Positions 19,268-55,109 of a DNA stretch of 64,000 nt are shown in pieces (position 1 is the first letter of the stretch; each line of letters starts with the position of its first letter). The notes beneath the pieces were generated by a model that was given only the letters and a program-made list of their open reading frames with translations, ran no database searches and had not been told where the DNA came from. The stretch comes from Ruminococcus sp. (GTDB lineage Bacteria; Bacillota; Clostridia; Oscillospirales; Acutalibacteraceae), in the NCBI GenBank assembly GCA_017403985.1, contig JAFRDE010000013.1:99750-163749 (forward strand), read 5' to 3'. The position numbers and the translations under genes are program-made.

Positions 19268-19384
19268 TGTCATTGCGAAGCCCTGAAAATCCGTTTTCAG
19301 GGCTGTGGCAATCCCCTTCCTGCTGCAACCGGTCGGAATAACAGGGTGATTCCCACGTCAGGCTCTGCCCTCCTCGGAATGACA
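19268..19384. repeat. Family C dispersed repeat (full length) between tpiA and gpmI
   Basis: TGTCATTGCGAAGCCCTG at the left and TCGGAATGACA at the right are inverted ends, with a strong hairpin of AGCCCTGAAAA and TTTTCAGGGCT inside. It lies within a same-strand glycolytic cluster, 22 bp before the gpmI start. Confidence 0.8.
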
Positions 19385-26077: not shown

Positions 26078-26179
26078 AGTTAAGGAAGGCTCCTTTTGGG
26101 AAAAGGAGCTGTCGCTATGAGGCGACTGAGGAATTGTATCAATTGACCGAGCGTCAGCGAGATACTTTTTCCTTAACTA
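26078..26179. repeat. Family A repeat (single copy) with 11-bp terminal inverted repeat
   Basis: The module contains hairpin GGCTCCTTTTGGGAAAAGGAGC, second hairpin GTCGCTATGAGGCGAC, and the conserved TGAGGAATTGTATCAATTGA followed by CCGAGC. It is bounded by TAGTTAAGGAA and TTCCTTAACTA, a perfect inverted repeat. Confidence 0.8.
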
Positions 26180-31832: not shown

Positions 31833-31993
31833 AGCCTTCCCCTTGACGGGGAAGGTGTCACCGCAAGGTGACGGATGAGGTGAAAACGCTTCCACTCCAT
31901 CCCGTTCATTAATAATTCGGAAAGGCTTTCACCTCATCCGACCAATTTGCCCATACAGGCAAATTGCCCACCTTCCCCATCAAGGGGAAGGCT
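31833..31993. repeat. MITE-like element (family B) between greA and lysS
   Basis: Terminal inverted repeats: AGCCTTCCCCTTGACGGGG at the left and CCCCATCAAGGGGAAGGCT at the right, with internal GTGTCACCGCAAGGTGACGG, then ATGAGGTGAAA and its partner TTTCACCTCAT. No coding capacity. The arrangement of two hairpins followed by a fixed motif parallels family A, but the core differs. Confidence 0.82.
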
Positions 31994-33447: not shown

Positions 33448-33529
33448 TTCTCGCTGACGCTCAATCAATCAATACAATCCCTCAGTCATCCCGAAGGATG
33501 ACAGCTCCCTTTACCAAAGGGAGCCTTCA
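33448..33529. repeat. Family A repeat (single copy, inverted orientation)
   Basis: On the minus strand it reads GGCTCCCTTTGGTAAAGG, then GGAGCTGTCATCC, loop TTCG, GGATGAC and TGAGGGATTGTATTGATTGA. It lies 7 bp after the stop codon of the murein hydrolase gene. Confidence 0.85.
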
Positions 33530-34858: not shown

Positions 34859-34978
34859 TGTCATTCCGAGGAGGGATTTATCCCGACGTTGGAATCCCCC
34901 TGTCGTCAATACCGTTTAAGAGGATGCTTTCTGCCCCTCTTTGTGGGATTGCCACGGGCTAAAGCCCTCGCAATGACA
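34859..34978. repeat. Family C dispersed repeat (full length) between ftsX and the hydrolase gene
   Basis: TGTCATTCCGAGGAG and CCCTCGCAATGACA are inverted ends; the interior has GTGGGATTGCCACGGGC and GGAATCCCCC. It fills most of the 198-bp spacer. Confidence 0.82.
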
Positions 34979-36644: not shown

Positions 36645-36764
36645 TGTCATTCCGAGGAGCGGATCCCATCCGCGACGTGGGAATCCCCCGGTCGTGAATA
36701 CCGTCAGAAAGGCACAGCCTCTCTTTGTGGGATTGCCACAGCCCTTGCGGGCTTCGCAATGACA
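36645..36764. repeat. Family C dispersed repeat (full length) upstream of ftsE
   Basis: Inverted ends TGTCATTCCGAGGAGCGG and GGGCTTCGCAATGACA enclose GTGGGAATCCCCC and GTGGGATTGCCACAGC. It lies between the promoter side of ftsE and the regulator gene. Confidence 0.82.
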
Positions 36765-41139: not shown

Positions 41140-41214
41140 GGTCGGTCGCTTCGCTCCGTTCATGCAATTCCTCAGTCGATATTTGTCGACCGCTCCCTTT
41201 ACCAAAGGGCGCCT
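41140..41214. repeat. Family A repeat (single copy)
   Basis: On the minus strand: GCGCCCTTTGGTAAAGGGAG then GTCGACAAATATCGAC and TGAGGAATTGCATGAACGGA. It encodes the last residues (ITGALW) and stop codon of the HAD phosphatase. Confidence 0.8.
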
Positions 41215-45891: not shown

Positions 45892-46016
45892 TGTCATTCC
45901 GAGGGAGCGGCTGAGCGACCGTGGGAATCCCACAAAGAGGAACAGCACTTTTCTGTTGCTTTAAACAATATTAATGACAAGGGGATTGCCACAGGGCTAA
46001 AGCCCTTCGCAATGAC
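45892..46016. repeat. Family C dispersed repeat (full length)
   Basis: Inverted ends TGTCATTCCGAGGGAGCGG and GCCCTTCGCAATGAC, with GTGGGAATCCCAC and GGGGATTGCCACAGGGC inside. It lies between ychF and the GT39-like gene. Confidence 0.82.
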
Positions 46017-52181: not shown

Positions 52182-52631
52182 CTACTCTCTTTGCTTTTTG
52201 CTGAATCTGATCAGCATGATCCGATCAAATATTGTCAGCACATATGTCAGATAGAATACGATCAAATAAATGATCTCATTGTTTTTGATCGGATATGGGT
52301 CGCCTATCTTTGACAACTCTACCACAGTTACAATCAAAAACATCGGAAGCAGTAAGAGGATATCCGCTCCGTGAACGATCAGCGGATGCTTGATGGTCAA
52401 ATGCTTTTTGGCTATAATCAATCTGCCGGTAAAATGGTCTGCCAAAATAATAACAGCGATCACACCAAATCCGATCAGGTGATCTTTAGCGCCATATTCC
52501 CTCTGCGGCTTAAAAAAACGATCCCACAATATGCAAAATAAGGCAAGAGTCATCATTAAATGGATCGCGATCATGACGATATAACTGATAACAACAGAAG
52601 CTTTAAATGAGCTTGTGTTATGATTCCTCAT
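52182..52631 (-). CDS. Four-segment integral membrane protein (unknown)
   Basis: The 149-residue protein has four membrane segments (about 13-35, 48-66, 82-105, 120-140) and a charged C-terminus, SKKQRE. GGAGGAAAACGC precedes the ATG. I do not recognise the family. Its stop lies 23 bp before rsmD, so it may be the first gene of that operon. Confidence 0.7.
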   Translation of the reverse strand: MRNHNTSSFKASVVISYIVMIAIHLMMTLALFCILWDRFFKPQREYGAKDHLIGFGVIAVIILADHFTGRLIIAKKHLTIKHPLIVHGADILLLLPMFLIVTVVELSKIGDPYPIKNNEIIYLIVFYLTYVLTIFDRIMLIRFSKKQRE

Positions 52632-52691: not shown

Positions 52692-52767
52692 AAGGCTCCC
52701 TTTGGTAAAGGGAGCTGTCACCGAACGGTGACTGAGGGATTGTATCAATTGACCGAGCAAAGCGAGA
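52692..52767. repeat. Family A repeat, left border of the DUF559 element
   Basis: GGCTCCCTTTGGTAAAGGGA GC, GTCACCGAACGGTGAC and TGAGGGATTGTATCAATTGA followed by CCGAGCAAAGCGAG. The DUF559 stop codon lies 4 bp from its right edge. The copy at 53171-53259 is inverted relative to it. Confidence 0.9.
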
Positions 52768-52771
52768 ATCC

Positions 52772-53155
52772 TTATTCCTGCAGAGCCTTTATTCTCGCAG
52801 TAACATGATAATCAATATCATCACACACTTCCTTAAAGCGCGTATGGATATCCCTGTTGTTGTATCTCAGCACTACAATCCCGTGTTTATTCAGATAATC
52901 CGTTCTTTCAGCGTCATAAAAGAGCGCTTCTTCTTCATAATGCTGCGAACCGTCTATCTCAATCACCAGTTTGGCTTTCGGACAGTAAAAATCCACAATA
53001 TACTTCCCGATAGTCTTTTGTCGCGTAAAAGCGACTCCGAATGTCTGACGGTACGGCTTCAGATAATCATACCAAAGATGCTTTTCTTCTTTGGTCATAT
53101 TCTTTCTGAGAGTTTTTGCCAAAGGCACATTCTCTTTGTTGTGTGTTCTATCCAT
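52772..53155 (-). CDS. DUF559 endonuclease-like protein inside an inverted-repeat unit
   Basis: The 127-residue protein matches DUF559, a PD-(D/E)XK/Vsr-like nuclease domain: RKNMTKEEKHLWYDYLKPY, then D55 in IVDFYCPKAKL, E66 and D68 in VIEIDGSQH, and RYNNRDI near the end. Domain and length are complete. The gene has a ribosome site (AGGAAGG) and is enclosed by two inverted family A repeats, 4 bp from the left one and about 16 bp from the right. Small DUF559 proteins occur widely in bacteria without proven function; Vsr acts on T:G mismatches. The context suggests that this protein is tied to its bordering repeats. Confidence 0.88.
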   Translation of the reverse strand: MDRTHNKENVPLAKTLRKNMTKEEKHLWYDYLKPYRQTFGVAFTRQKTIGKYIVDFYCPKAKLVIEIDGSQHYEEEALFYDAERTDYLNKHGIVVLRYNNRDIHTRFKEVCDDIDYHVTARIKALQE

Positions 53156-53170
53156 GAAAACCTTCCTGAA

Positions 53171-53259
53171 TCGGTTGGTCGCGAGATAACTCGCTCCATT
53201 GATACAATCCCTCAGTCACGGCTTGACGCCGCGACAGCTCCCTTTACCAAAGGGAGCCT
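53171..53259. repeat. Family A repeat, right border of the DUF559 element
   Basis: On the minus strand it reads GGCTCCCTTTGGTAAAGGGA GC, then GTCGCGGCGTCAAGCCGTGAC, TGAGGGATTGTATCAATGGA and GCGAGTTATCTCGC. It ends 1 bp from the uvrC stop codon. Confidence 0.9.
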
Positions 53260-53260
53260 A

Positions 53261-55093
53261 TTATTCCTCATGAAAATAGTTGTACACGCTCACCGCGGCG
53301 GGATGGGTCATACCGGGCGCCTGTTCGAGCTCCTCCGTCGACGCGTTGGAAATGTTTTTGATGGTTCTGAAGTAGCGCATCAACTCTTTCGCGCGCTTTC
53401 TGCCGATACCGGGGATCTCTTCCAAAGAGGAACCCAACGCCTTTTTTCTCTGCTGTCGGTTGAAGCCGATGGCGTAGCGGTGGACTTCATCCTGGATATT
53501 GGTAATAAAGGTATAGACGGCGCGGTTGGGACGGATCGCGATCTCGCCCGATTCGCTGACGATGGCGCGGGTGCGGTGGCGGTCGTCCTTGACCATGCCG
53601 AAGACGGGGATGCTGAGTCCCGACGCATCGATCACAGGCAGCACGGCGCCGACCTGTCCCTTGCCGCCATCGAGCAGGATCAGATCCGGCAGTCTGCCGA
53701 ATCCGTCGGTCTCCCCTGCTTCTTGCGCCTTTTTGTATTCATCCAGTCTGCGGGTCAGCACCTCAGCCATCGAGCCGTAGTCGTCCTGTCCCGAGAAAGA
53801 TTTGATCTTAAACTTGCGGTATGCACTCTTGAGCGGTCGGGCGTTCTCAAATACGACCATGCCAGCGACGTTGTCCGCGCCGGCAAAGTTGCTGATATCG
53901 TAGCTCTCGATGTATTCGGGCAGCTTGTCAAGACCGAGCAGGTTTTTCAGCTCGTCCAGAACGCTCAGCTGCTTACCGGTCACGCCCTTGAGCTGACCGA
54001 GGGCTTCGTAGGCGTTCTTCTGGCACATATCGACGAGATTCTTCTGTACGCCTCTTTGAGGAATATTGATATAAACACGCTTGCCCTTTTTTTCGGTGAG
54101 CCAAAGCTCTGTGTTTTCGATATCCTCGATCCCGCCGTCGAGGGCGATATGGGAAGGGATCTCATTCCTTAATGTATAGTAACGCAGGATGAACTGGGAG
54201 CGGAGATCGACCTCGTCATCGACGTCGTCGATGATGAAGTTCTCGGTATCGTACATGCGCGAGTCGTTGAAGCGCAGGACCGTCACGGAACCGCGGCTGC
54301 CCTCGCGGGCGAGCGCGATGACGTCCAGCTCGTCGATATGGATATCGACAACCTTCTGCTTATCGCGCATCTTCTTCATCGCGGCGATCTGGTCACGGTA
54401 ACGCGCGGCGCGCTCAAAGTCCAGCGCATCCGCGGCGGCGGTCATCCTCTCCTGCAGCTCCTTCAAGGTCTTAGAGCTGTCGCCGGAAAGATATTCGAGA
54501 GCGGATTCGACCCGCTCGTTATAGTCTTTCAGCTTGACGCGGCCGGTACACGGCGCGCAGCACTGCTTGATATGATAGTTCAGGCAGGGACGGAATCGTC
54601 CGAAATCCTCGGGGAACCGGCGATTGCAGGTCGGCAGACCGAAGATCTTGTTCGCCTCTTCCACCGAGGATTTGACATAGTAGCTCGACTTATACGGCCC
54701 GATATACCGCGCGCCGTCGTCGGCTTTTTGCAGAACATAGCTCAGACGGCGCCATTCTTCATTGGTAACGCGGATATAGCTGTAGCCCTTATCGTCCTTC
54801 AATAATATATTGTACTTCGGTGCGTGCTGTTTGATCAGACTGCACTCGAGGATCAAACATTCAAACTCACTGTCGGTGATGATGTAATCAAAGTCGTCGA
54901 CGTTGTCCACCATGCGGCGGACCTTTTCGGTGTGGTTGTTCTGGGAGCCGAAATACTGGCTAACGCGGTTTTTCAGTTTTTTTGCCTTGCCGATATAGAT
55001 GATCTCGCCCTGCGCGTTCTTCATAATATACACGCCCGGCTGCAGCGGCAAAGCCATCGCCTTGGCGCGCAGGTCCTTTAACTTCGGATTCAT
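53261..55093 (-). CDS. uvrC: Excinuclease ABC subunit C
   Basis: The 610-residue protein has the GIY-YIG nuclease domain (PGVYIMKNAQGEIIYIGKAKK), a UvrB-binding UVR motif in the middle (AADALDFERAARYRDQ), the RNase H-like C-terminal nuclease region with DGGKGQ and a terminal HhH pair (EEIPGIGRKRAKELMRYF). It makes both incisions in nucleotide excision repair. I start at ATG 55093, after GGGAGGTGAAACG; a Met five codons earlier would place this site in the coding region. Confidence 0.97.
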   Translation of the reverse strand: MNPKLKDLRAKAMALPLQPGVYIMKNAQGEIIYIGKAKKLKNRVSQYFGSQNNHTEKVRRMVDNVDDFDYIITDSEFECLILECSLIKQHAPKYNILLKDDKGYSYIRVTNEEWRRLSYVLQKADDGARYIGPYKSSYYVKSSVEEANKIFGLPTCNRRFPEDFGRFRPCLNYHIKQCCAPCTGRVKLKDYNERVESALEYLSGDSSKTLKELQERMTAAADALDFERAARYRDQIAAMKKMRDKQKVVDIHIDELDVIALAREGSRGSVTVLRFNDSRMYDTENFIIDDVDDEVDLRSQFILRYYTLRNEIPSHIALDGGIEDIENTELWLTEKKGKRVYINIPQRGVQKNLVDMCQKNAYEALGQLKGVTGKQLSVLDELKNLLGLDKLPEYIESYDISNFAGADNVAGMVVFENARPLKSAYRKFKIKSFSGQDDYGSMAEVLTRRLDEYKKAQEAGETDGFGRLPDLILLDGGKGQVGAVLPVIDASGLSIPVFGMVKDDRHRTRAIVSESGEIAIRPNRAVYTFITNIQDEVHRYAIGFNRQQRKKALGSSLEEIPGIGRKRAKELMRYFRTIKNISNASTEELEQAPGMTHPAAVSVYNYFHEE

Positions 55094-55109
55094 CGTTTCA
55101 CCTCCCATT

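Follow-up and report, generated by a model that had tools for sequence, protein, structure and literature searches.

The window, that is, the whole 64,000-nt stretch of Ruminococcus sp. DNA analysed here, belongs to a genome of 2.68 Mb in 63 contigs. Downstream of an open reading frame that we take to be uvrC (53261-55108; named as in the initial annotation) lies a 565-nt unit, two bases away from the uvrC stop codon (whose last base is 53261) and bordered by GGCTCCC at 52694 and GGGAGCC at 53258. The initial annotation described two inverted repeats around one gene with a complete DUF559 domain, and both parts of this description were confirmed. Direct reading and a repeat search recovered outer arms (52693-52719 and 53233-53259; 27 nt, 100% complementary) and inner arms (52728-52757 and 53190-53219; 30 nt, 93% complementary), both pairs enclosing a single ORF on the minus strand (52772-53155), and the 127-aa product is a member of Pfam DUF559 (PF04480; E = 1.5e-30, 105.7 bits, curated cut-off 20.6). 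The features of the window are as follows.

2684-2846, no strand assigned: gene-less mini-element, 163 nt, with a CC-form end, subterminal parts in common with the DUF559 unit and a GC-form end
19268-19382, 34859-34976, 36645-36760 and 45892-46010: copies of a second repeat family
26091-26143, plus strand: solo end (motif search)
31834-31992, no strand assigned: second-class mini-element with GCCTTCCCC..GATGAGG at its ends (C63:131583-131741)
33468-33522, minus strand: solo end (motif search)
41188-41210, minus strand: degenerate solo end, outer palindrome only (motif search)
52694-53258, minus strand: complete, putatively mobile unit, 565 nt, with the DUF559 gene on the minus strand (repeat search and direct reading)
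52694-52715, plus strand: GC-form outer palindrome (hairpin 1), in the end 3' of the gene
52716-52732, plus strand: hairpin 2 (TGTCACCGAACGGTGAC), in the end 3' of the gene
52733-52749, plus strand: inner motif TGAGGGATTGTATCAAT, then subterminal TTGACCGAGC..GCGAG
52772-53155, minus strand: DUF559 gene, 127 aa, predicted PD-(D/E)XK/Vsr-like single-domain nuclease
53198-53214, minus strand: inner motif, in the end 5' of the gene
53215-53236, minus strand: hairpin 2, in the end 5' of the gene
53237-53258, minus strand: GC-form outer palindrome (hairpin 1), in the end 5' of the gene
53261-55108, minus strand: presumed uvrC, neighbour of the DUF559 unit (ORF list)

From the outside inward, each end of ~85 nt consists of a palindrome (GGCTCCCTTTGGTAAAGGGAGC), a second hairpin, the inner motif and a further, weaker stem, and folding as single-stranded DNA gave two adjacent hairpins at both ends (z = -3.1 and -6.3). 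The outer motif TCCCTTTGGTAAAGGGAGCTGTC has six matches in the window at three mismatches or fewer, compared with none in 100 shuffles, and the inner motif has five compared with 0.14 expected. At the gathering threshold, Rfam gave no match in eight loci of 1.3-3.3 kb, and RNAalifold recovered the outer stem alone from 40 mixed ends of uneven aligned lengths. An ORF of 149 aa (52182-52631) adjoins the unit and is missing from the same place in a related genome, G201.

The structure model of the DUF559 protein has a pLDDT of 90.3 and a pTM of 0.84. Foldseek searches with this model, ordered by E-value, placed 3hrl at rank 1, the homing endonuclease I-Bth0305I at ranks 2-3 and Vsr at rank 10, behind ribosomal and restriction-enzyme chains; 3hrl is also the sole relevant PDB match by sequence (E = 1.4e-15). 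Residues D55, E66, D68 and H72 are invariant across 48 DUF559 sequences, and by modelled fold and conserved acidic residues the protein is a predicted PD-(D/E)XK nuclease. Nuclease activity is plausible in the DUF559 family, since a Caulobacter member is reported to be Vsr-like and tied to DNA damage (PMC12907096). Comparison with three units located elsewhere gave dN/dS values of 0.06, 0.07 and 0.11, at dS of 1.4-2.5 (saturated or nearly so), and a fourth pair was saturated; these ratios point to purifying selection on the protein between units.

Gene-less copies of the repeat had been noted at 26.1, 33.5 and 41.2 kb and as a pair at 2.7 kb. All of these are present, with two corrections: the 41.2-kb copy has no inner motif within three mismatches, and only one end of the 2.7-kb pair matches the outer motif, the other being of a different form. 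This pair (2684-2846) follows the plan of the DUF559 unit, with one CC-form end (GCCTTCC..GGAAGG) and one GC-form end, and retains the unit's subterminal TTGACCGAGC..GCGAGAA and GCGACCAACC without the gene. The mini-element at 31834-31992 is of the TTCCCC/GATGAGG class, and the single DUF559 unit in this genome belongs to the TCCCTT class; the mover of this mini-element may have been lost from the genome.

Beyond the window, one 61-nt end used as a query has at least 43 matches in the same genome (40 of 92 candidates scored), and the core CTCCCTTN{2,6}AAGGGAG occurs in 101 copies, compared with none for a control pattern (0 to 2 in the other 199 genomes). The genome holds one DUF559 gene and no Y1_Tnp gene, by a search that does find Y1_Tnp in five control genomes. 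The oriented GC form is fitted by 53 of the cores, and among these 53 copies the DUF559 unit is the sole inward-facing pair within 3 kb, the next pair being 4.1 kb apart. When replication strand was assigned from local GC skew for 30 copies, 13 of the 20 usable ones fell on one side, which is no clear bias. A second dispersed repeat family (TGTCATTCCGAG..GGGAATCCC...GGGATTGCCACAG..CGCAATGACA), often found as inverted pairs of ~110-120 nt, resembles CGTC/TGTC-tagged REPs, and its 45.9-kb copy matches many places in G201.

We compared the locus with three related genomes (G200, G201 and G202, those of loci L114, L115 and L116), whose best pieces are ~80-92% identical to the window region. Comparison of the uvrC site between genomes, as proposed in the initial annotation, found the unit present in G202 and missing in G201. 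The same annotation had asked whether close relatives carry the gene at this site with no repeats next to it; G202 carries it with repeats, the end on the gene's 3' side being broken by an insert. One end and the flank of this G202 unit (L268, contig C15) are tandemly duplicated, the other end being the one with the insert. G200 has one unit, away from uvrC (C16), and G201 has two, at C29 and C46. These three units are 557, 561 and 557 nt long (561 for G201 C46), compared with 565 nt in the window, and carry the window's outer palindrome at both ends, one unit with a single loop base changed. Together with the window's own unit beside uvrC, they occupy four non-orthologous sites. The window's genome has an empty site corresponding to G201 C46: both flanks are continuous in contig C15 and ~35 nt of diverged intergenic DNA replaces the 561-nt unit, and the empty site is known to that resolution. 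G200 and G202 match the left flank as far as this site, where a short right-flank motif follows with no unit between; the remaining right side is diverged. Two other sites were rejected for this purpose: the flanks of G201 C29 match different contigs in the window's genome, G200 and G202, and the G201 uvrC site lacks the unit and contains a repeat of another family. Movement of the unit is thus well supported by comparison of sequences: within the genomes of these gut bacteria, the 565-nt unit seems to have travelled from place to place, with gene-less copies left behind.

Turning to the gene family, 68 of 200 genomes of the window's family have a DUF559 match, strong (E < 1e-15) in 53, with up to six matches in one genome. 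An inverted repeat (score of at least 13 within 300 bp) flanks 57 of 79 family loci, compared with 3 of 76 control pairs; these 79, of 83, had enough flank, the 83 comprising 30 loci and 53 regions, with G015:C61 (which lies at a contig edge) and all matches from 1.2e-23 on left out. Among named loci of other species the repeat was found in 54 of 77 with enough flank (80 in all) and in 4 of 355 controls. Pooling the non-redundant loci (nine viral-contig loci included, seven duplicates removed) gave 107 of 155, compared with 10 of 329 control window pairs at the same score and distance. Loci with less than 100 bp of flank on a side were left out of these counts, and L088 and L203 were dropped from the 172 loci, one having an internal stop and one a matched stretch below 85 aa. 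The positives extend to Negativicutes (L161) and Lachnospiraceae (L188); of the loci labelled Chloroflexota, L152 is positive and L121 and L179 are negative, with mis-binning of the MAGs possible. Throughout, p values are nominal, and the end classes rest on one regular expression and one score threshold (13).

A strict criterion for outward ends, applied to 163 unique loci, found both ends in 65, one in 48 and none in 50. The 65 two-ended loci carry the CC form at the gene's 5' side and the GC form at its 3' side in 35 cases and the reverse in 5 (P value = 1.4e-6), with 19 CC/CC and 6 GC/GC; the window's own unit is GC/GC and hence without the asymmetry. Because independent repeats would ignore gene direction, the link between end form and gene direction argues that these ends are not independent repeats. 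Both ends belong to one 5-nt core class in 53 of the 65 (shuffled mean 24.7, maximum 35). End class also follows the protein: it changes 19 times on the protein tree (98 rows; mean 40 and minimum 35 in 200 shuffles), it is shared with the nearest protein in another genome in 76 of 113 cases (32 expected), and it is the same in five of seven within-genome pairs at 60% protein identity or more and in one of eight below. This covariation follows equally from linkage alone. Across 178 ends, the base just before the core is G (0.93), and position -2 outside the core is A (0.69) or T (0.23) and rarely G (0.01), in an A/T-rich, G-poor flank. No target duplication, the criterion for DDE-type insertion sequences, stands out in the 65 loci: raw counts of flank matches flush to the core are one of 4 nt and none of 5, and at offsets 1 and 2 they are two each of 4 nt, one and two of 5 nt, and none of 6.

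The number of cores tracks the presence of the gene across the 200 genomes (counts include the unit's own ends). At least two class-1 cores were found in 33 of the 53 genomes with a strong DUF559 match and in 13 of 147 others (P value = 6e-14), at least two class-2 cores (CTTCCCCT..AGGGGAAG) in 17 of 53 and 2 of 147 (P value = 2e-9), and at least three of either class in 35 of 53 and 9 of 147 (P value = 1e-17). With one genome per genus, at least three cores occur in 23 of 36 compared with 5 of 99 (P value = 2e-12), and of 17 same-genus pairs differing in DUF559, 12 agree with the trend, 3 oppose it (P value = 0.035 for 12 versus 3) and 2 are ties. The relation is class-specific: after subtraction of two ends from genomes holding the class, the 18 genomes with class-1 unit ends have more class-1 cores than other DUF559 genomes (P value = 3e-4), and the 5 with class-2 unit ends have more class-2 cores (P value = 2e-4). 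Exceptions occur in both directions. Three or more class-1 cores are found without a strong DUF559 match in G034 (18 cores), G014, G066, G109, G122, G139 and G182, and seven class-2 cores in G172; gene loss may account for such genomes, and G014, G109 and G122, unlike the other exceptions, are less than 90% complete. Conversely, 15 of the 53 strong-DUF559 genomes have no class-1 cores.

Deletion derivatives also occur. Besides the 163-nt pair of the window, G016 holds a 208-nt element twice, in different flanks, each with both ends and the first DUF559 codons, after which the frame is disrupted and a long internal stretch is missing. The presence of the same defective unit in two copies suggests that copying followed the breakage and therefore took place in trans; the two elements start 306 nt apart, and given this spacing a local event is possible. 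Core pairs 94-187 nt apart recur among the matches listed in the family genomes, and the three short pairs whose content was read (L317, L318 and L321) are gene-less.

We then considered how far the association extends. The initial annotation had named as a refutation that DUF559 homologues are usually found without the repeats; this does not hold for relatives near the window protein, the pooled loci above, and it does hold in a phylum-wide sample, where 1 of 15 DUF559 loci (frames below 200 aa with enough flank, from 299 genomes of the window's phylum) has repeats. Two of the 15 loci are close relatives (E < 1e-25), namely the positive one (L326) and one of the negatives (L324). As the other 13 loci are distant, the repeat association looks like a property of a DUF559 subclade and not of the whole family.

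Plasmids and phages were represented by 23 of 39 plasmid records and by a single phage record out of two; the count excludes L307, which is a long fusion gene, and L323, which received a separate scoring. In the resulting 22 records, 11 have an inverted repeat outside the ORF scoring at least 13 (all at least 16), compared with 1 of 22 control maxima. The positives are Pseudanabaena, four Deinococcus plasmids, Azospirillum lipoferum, Picosynechococcus, Sinorhizobium meliloti (102), Novosphingobium, Qipengyuania and the phage record, whose repeat is not of the palindromic kind. The negatives are Synechocystis, E. coli, three A. brasilense, Sinorhizobium K101, Shinella, Sphingobium, Photobacterium and two Sphingomonas, one of which scores 23 if measured from the domain. 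By annotation, plasmids of three Deinococcus species (L290, L302 and L306) have DUF559 within the hpa catabolic gene cluster, at a different junction in each. In S. meliloti CP090106 (L297) it lies between inverted repeats of ~114 nt, which may be a RIME element, although no paper was found on this point; this unit plus part of a neighbouring insertion sequence, used as one query, matches 487 places in 161 plasmid records, a count not split by part. Among the matches listed, no exact usable empty site was found around the Sinorhizobium and Azospirillum plasmid genes. In the Neisseria record (L323), which holds a gene of the 3hrl family, the flanking CCCTCTCCC repeats look direct and not inverted.

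Based on these data, we propose that the unit is a small transposable element with asymmetric double-hairpin ends, and that its DUF559 nuclease most likely recognises and cuts these ends, letting units, mini-elements and solo ends spread; we consider this explanation probable. The discrete unit, its occurrence at different sites with near-identical ends, the variation of ends with the protein, the dispersed mini-elements and solo ends, and a copy number that tracks gene presence and end class are all observed. We infer that DUF559 is the enzyme that moves the unit, that its substrate would be folded or single-stranded DNA, and that joining would fall to host replication or repair. In the proposed mechanism, DUF559 would bind the ends, probably as folded hairpins, and cut at their outer boundary, which could release the DNA, nick a replicating strand or provoke repair. 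The host would then supply the joining step, and the whole unit and, in trans, mini-elements and single ends would spread to A/T-rich places without target duplication.

The main alternative is that some other transposase mobilises, in trans, any DNA bearing these ends, and that the nuclease gene was captured and spreads along as a passenger. To our knowledge a PD-(D/E)XK nuclease by itself lacks a means of joining DNA ends, and the class is not known to transpose alone; this speaks for the alternative, as do the many cores in G034, G014 and G172 without a strong DUF559 match, and the transposase search of the window's genome covered Y1_Tnp only. Against it, that genome has 101 cores and no Y1_Tnp, its sole inward-facing GC-form pair within 3 kb contains DUF559, core number tracks the gene in both presence and class, and inverted repeats surround about half of the tested plasmid DUF559 genes, in Cyanobacteria, Deinococcus and Alphaproteobacteria. 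We regard a passenger nuclease as unlikely, though it is the alternative that deserves most weight.

Less probable still, and in our estimation quite improbable, is that DUF559 acts mainly as a Vsr-like mismatch-repair or restriction-type enzyme, with mobility being incidental or a homing-like outcome of break repair. Vsr cuts at T:G mismatches, and homing yields allelic, not dispersed, copies. The modelled fold near I-Bth0305I, with Vsr at rank 10, favours such a role, as do the Vsr-like, DNA-damage-linked Caulobacter protein reported in PMC12907096 and the PADLOC results, which are weak partial matches only, to DpdF and mREase_II; the dispersed gene-less mini-elements with the same ends stand against it. 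The initial annotation had also allowed that the repeats simply inserted on each side, and the common solo copies in the window's genome would fit REP-like or terminator elements that landed by chance on both sides of a resident gene. This reading is very unlikely, to the point of being nearly negligible, given the orientation asymmetry (35 versus 5), the single end class in 53 of 65 loci, the low control rate (10/329) and the presence of the whole unit at several sites.

Returning to the transposable element with its own nuclease, a broader proposal is that nucleases of this DUF559 subclade serve as the only enzyme in a widespread and hitherto unrecognised transposable-element class, present in Bacillota and, judging by the plasmid loci, in Cyanobacteria, Deinococcota and Alphaproteobacteria, which would move hairpin-bounded DNA without a classical transposase and would be the source of several orphan palindrome families; we see the case for this as evenly balanced. 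The autonomous DNA transposons known to us use DDE, HUH, tyrosine or serine chemistry. If the proposal is true, a restriction-type nuclease as the only gene, combined with asymmetric ends, mini-elements and solo ends, constitutes another kind of transposon, and orphan palindromes could be screened for an associated nuclease. With a protein of 127 aa and ends of ~85 nt, the system is small enough for direct tests of binding, cutting and movement.

A parallel with REP elements and their RAYT, or with MITEs and their parent transposon, but with a nuclease that is neither HUH nor DDE, had been suggested from the window and is supported by the comparison across genomes. In the open PMC literature (without bioRxiv), no paper was found that joins DUF559 with inverted repeats, and co-mentions with palindromic sequences look unrelated. 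Vsr and Vsr-like homing endonucleases such as I-Bth0305I share the modelled fold, and we know of no inverted double-hairpin ends or mini-elements for them. The gene-less inverted pairs resemble MITEs in keeping the ends and part of a parent unit, but the only gene of the parent here is DUF559 and not a DDE transposase. CGTC-tagged REPs are also palindromic repeats, reported as apparently without a dedicated transposase (PMC3733652), but their tag lies beside a single stem. A TGTCATTsCGA-type motif, used as a stand-in for the CGTC tag, lies beside none of the 172 DUF559 loci, and repeats with this stand-in motif were rejected as the DUF559 partner.

IS200/IS605 elements have hairpin ends, one small gene and no target duplication, all of which the DUF559 unit shares. 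They differ in that the flanked gene here is not a Y1 transposase, of which the window's genome has none by the Y1_Tnp search, and in that the ends are inverted copies of each other. The unit resembles REP, REPIN and RAYT systems in architecture and behaviour, with short dispersed palindromes, inverted pairs, gene-less mini-elements and, as found here, inverted copies of such a palindrome on both sides of one small enzyme gene. The flanked gene, however, matches DUF559 and not Y1_Tnp in Pfam, so that the enzyme is a predicted PD-(D/E)XK and not an HUH/Y1 protein; no GTAG lies beside the palindrome at the two window ends; each end is a double hairpin, of which a left and a right form exist; and the DUF559 gene unit itself appears to move, whereas no evidence of mobility is reported for tnpA-REP (PMC8266576). 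Because a nuclease-only unit with these ends departs from both RAYT and IS200/IS605, we regard it as a new kind of element that lies outside the two systems and, if architecture is placed over enzyme, as a REPtron variant.
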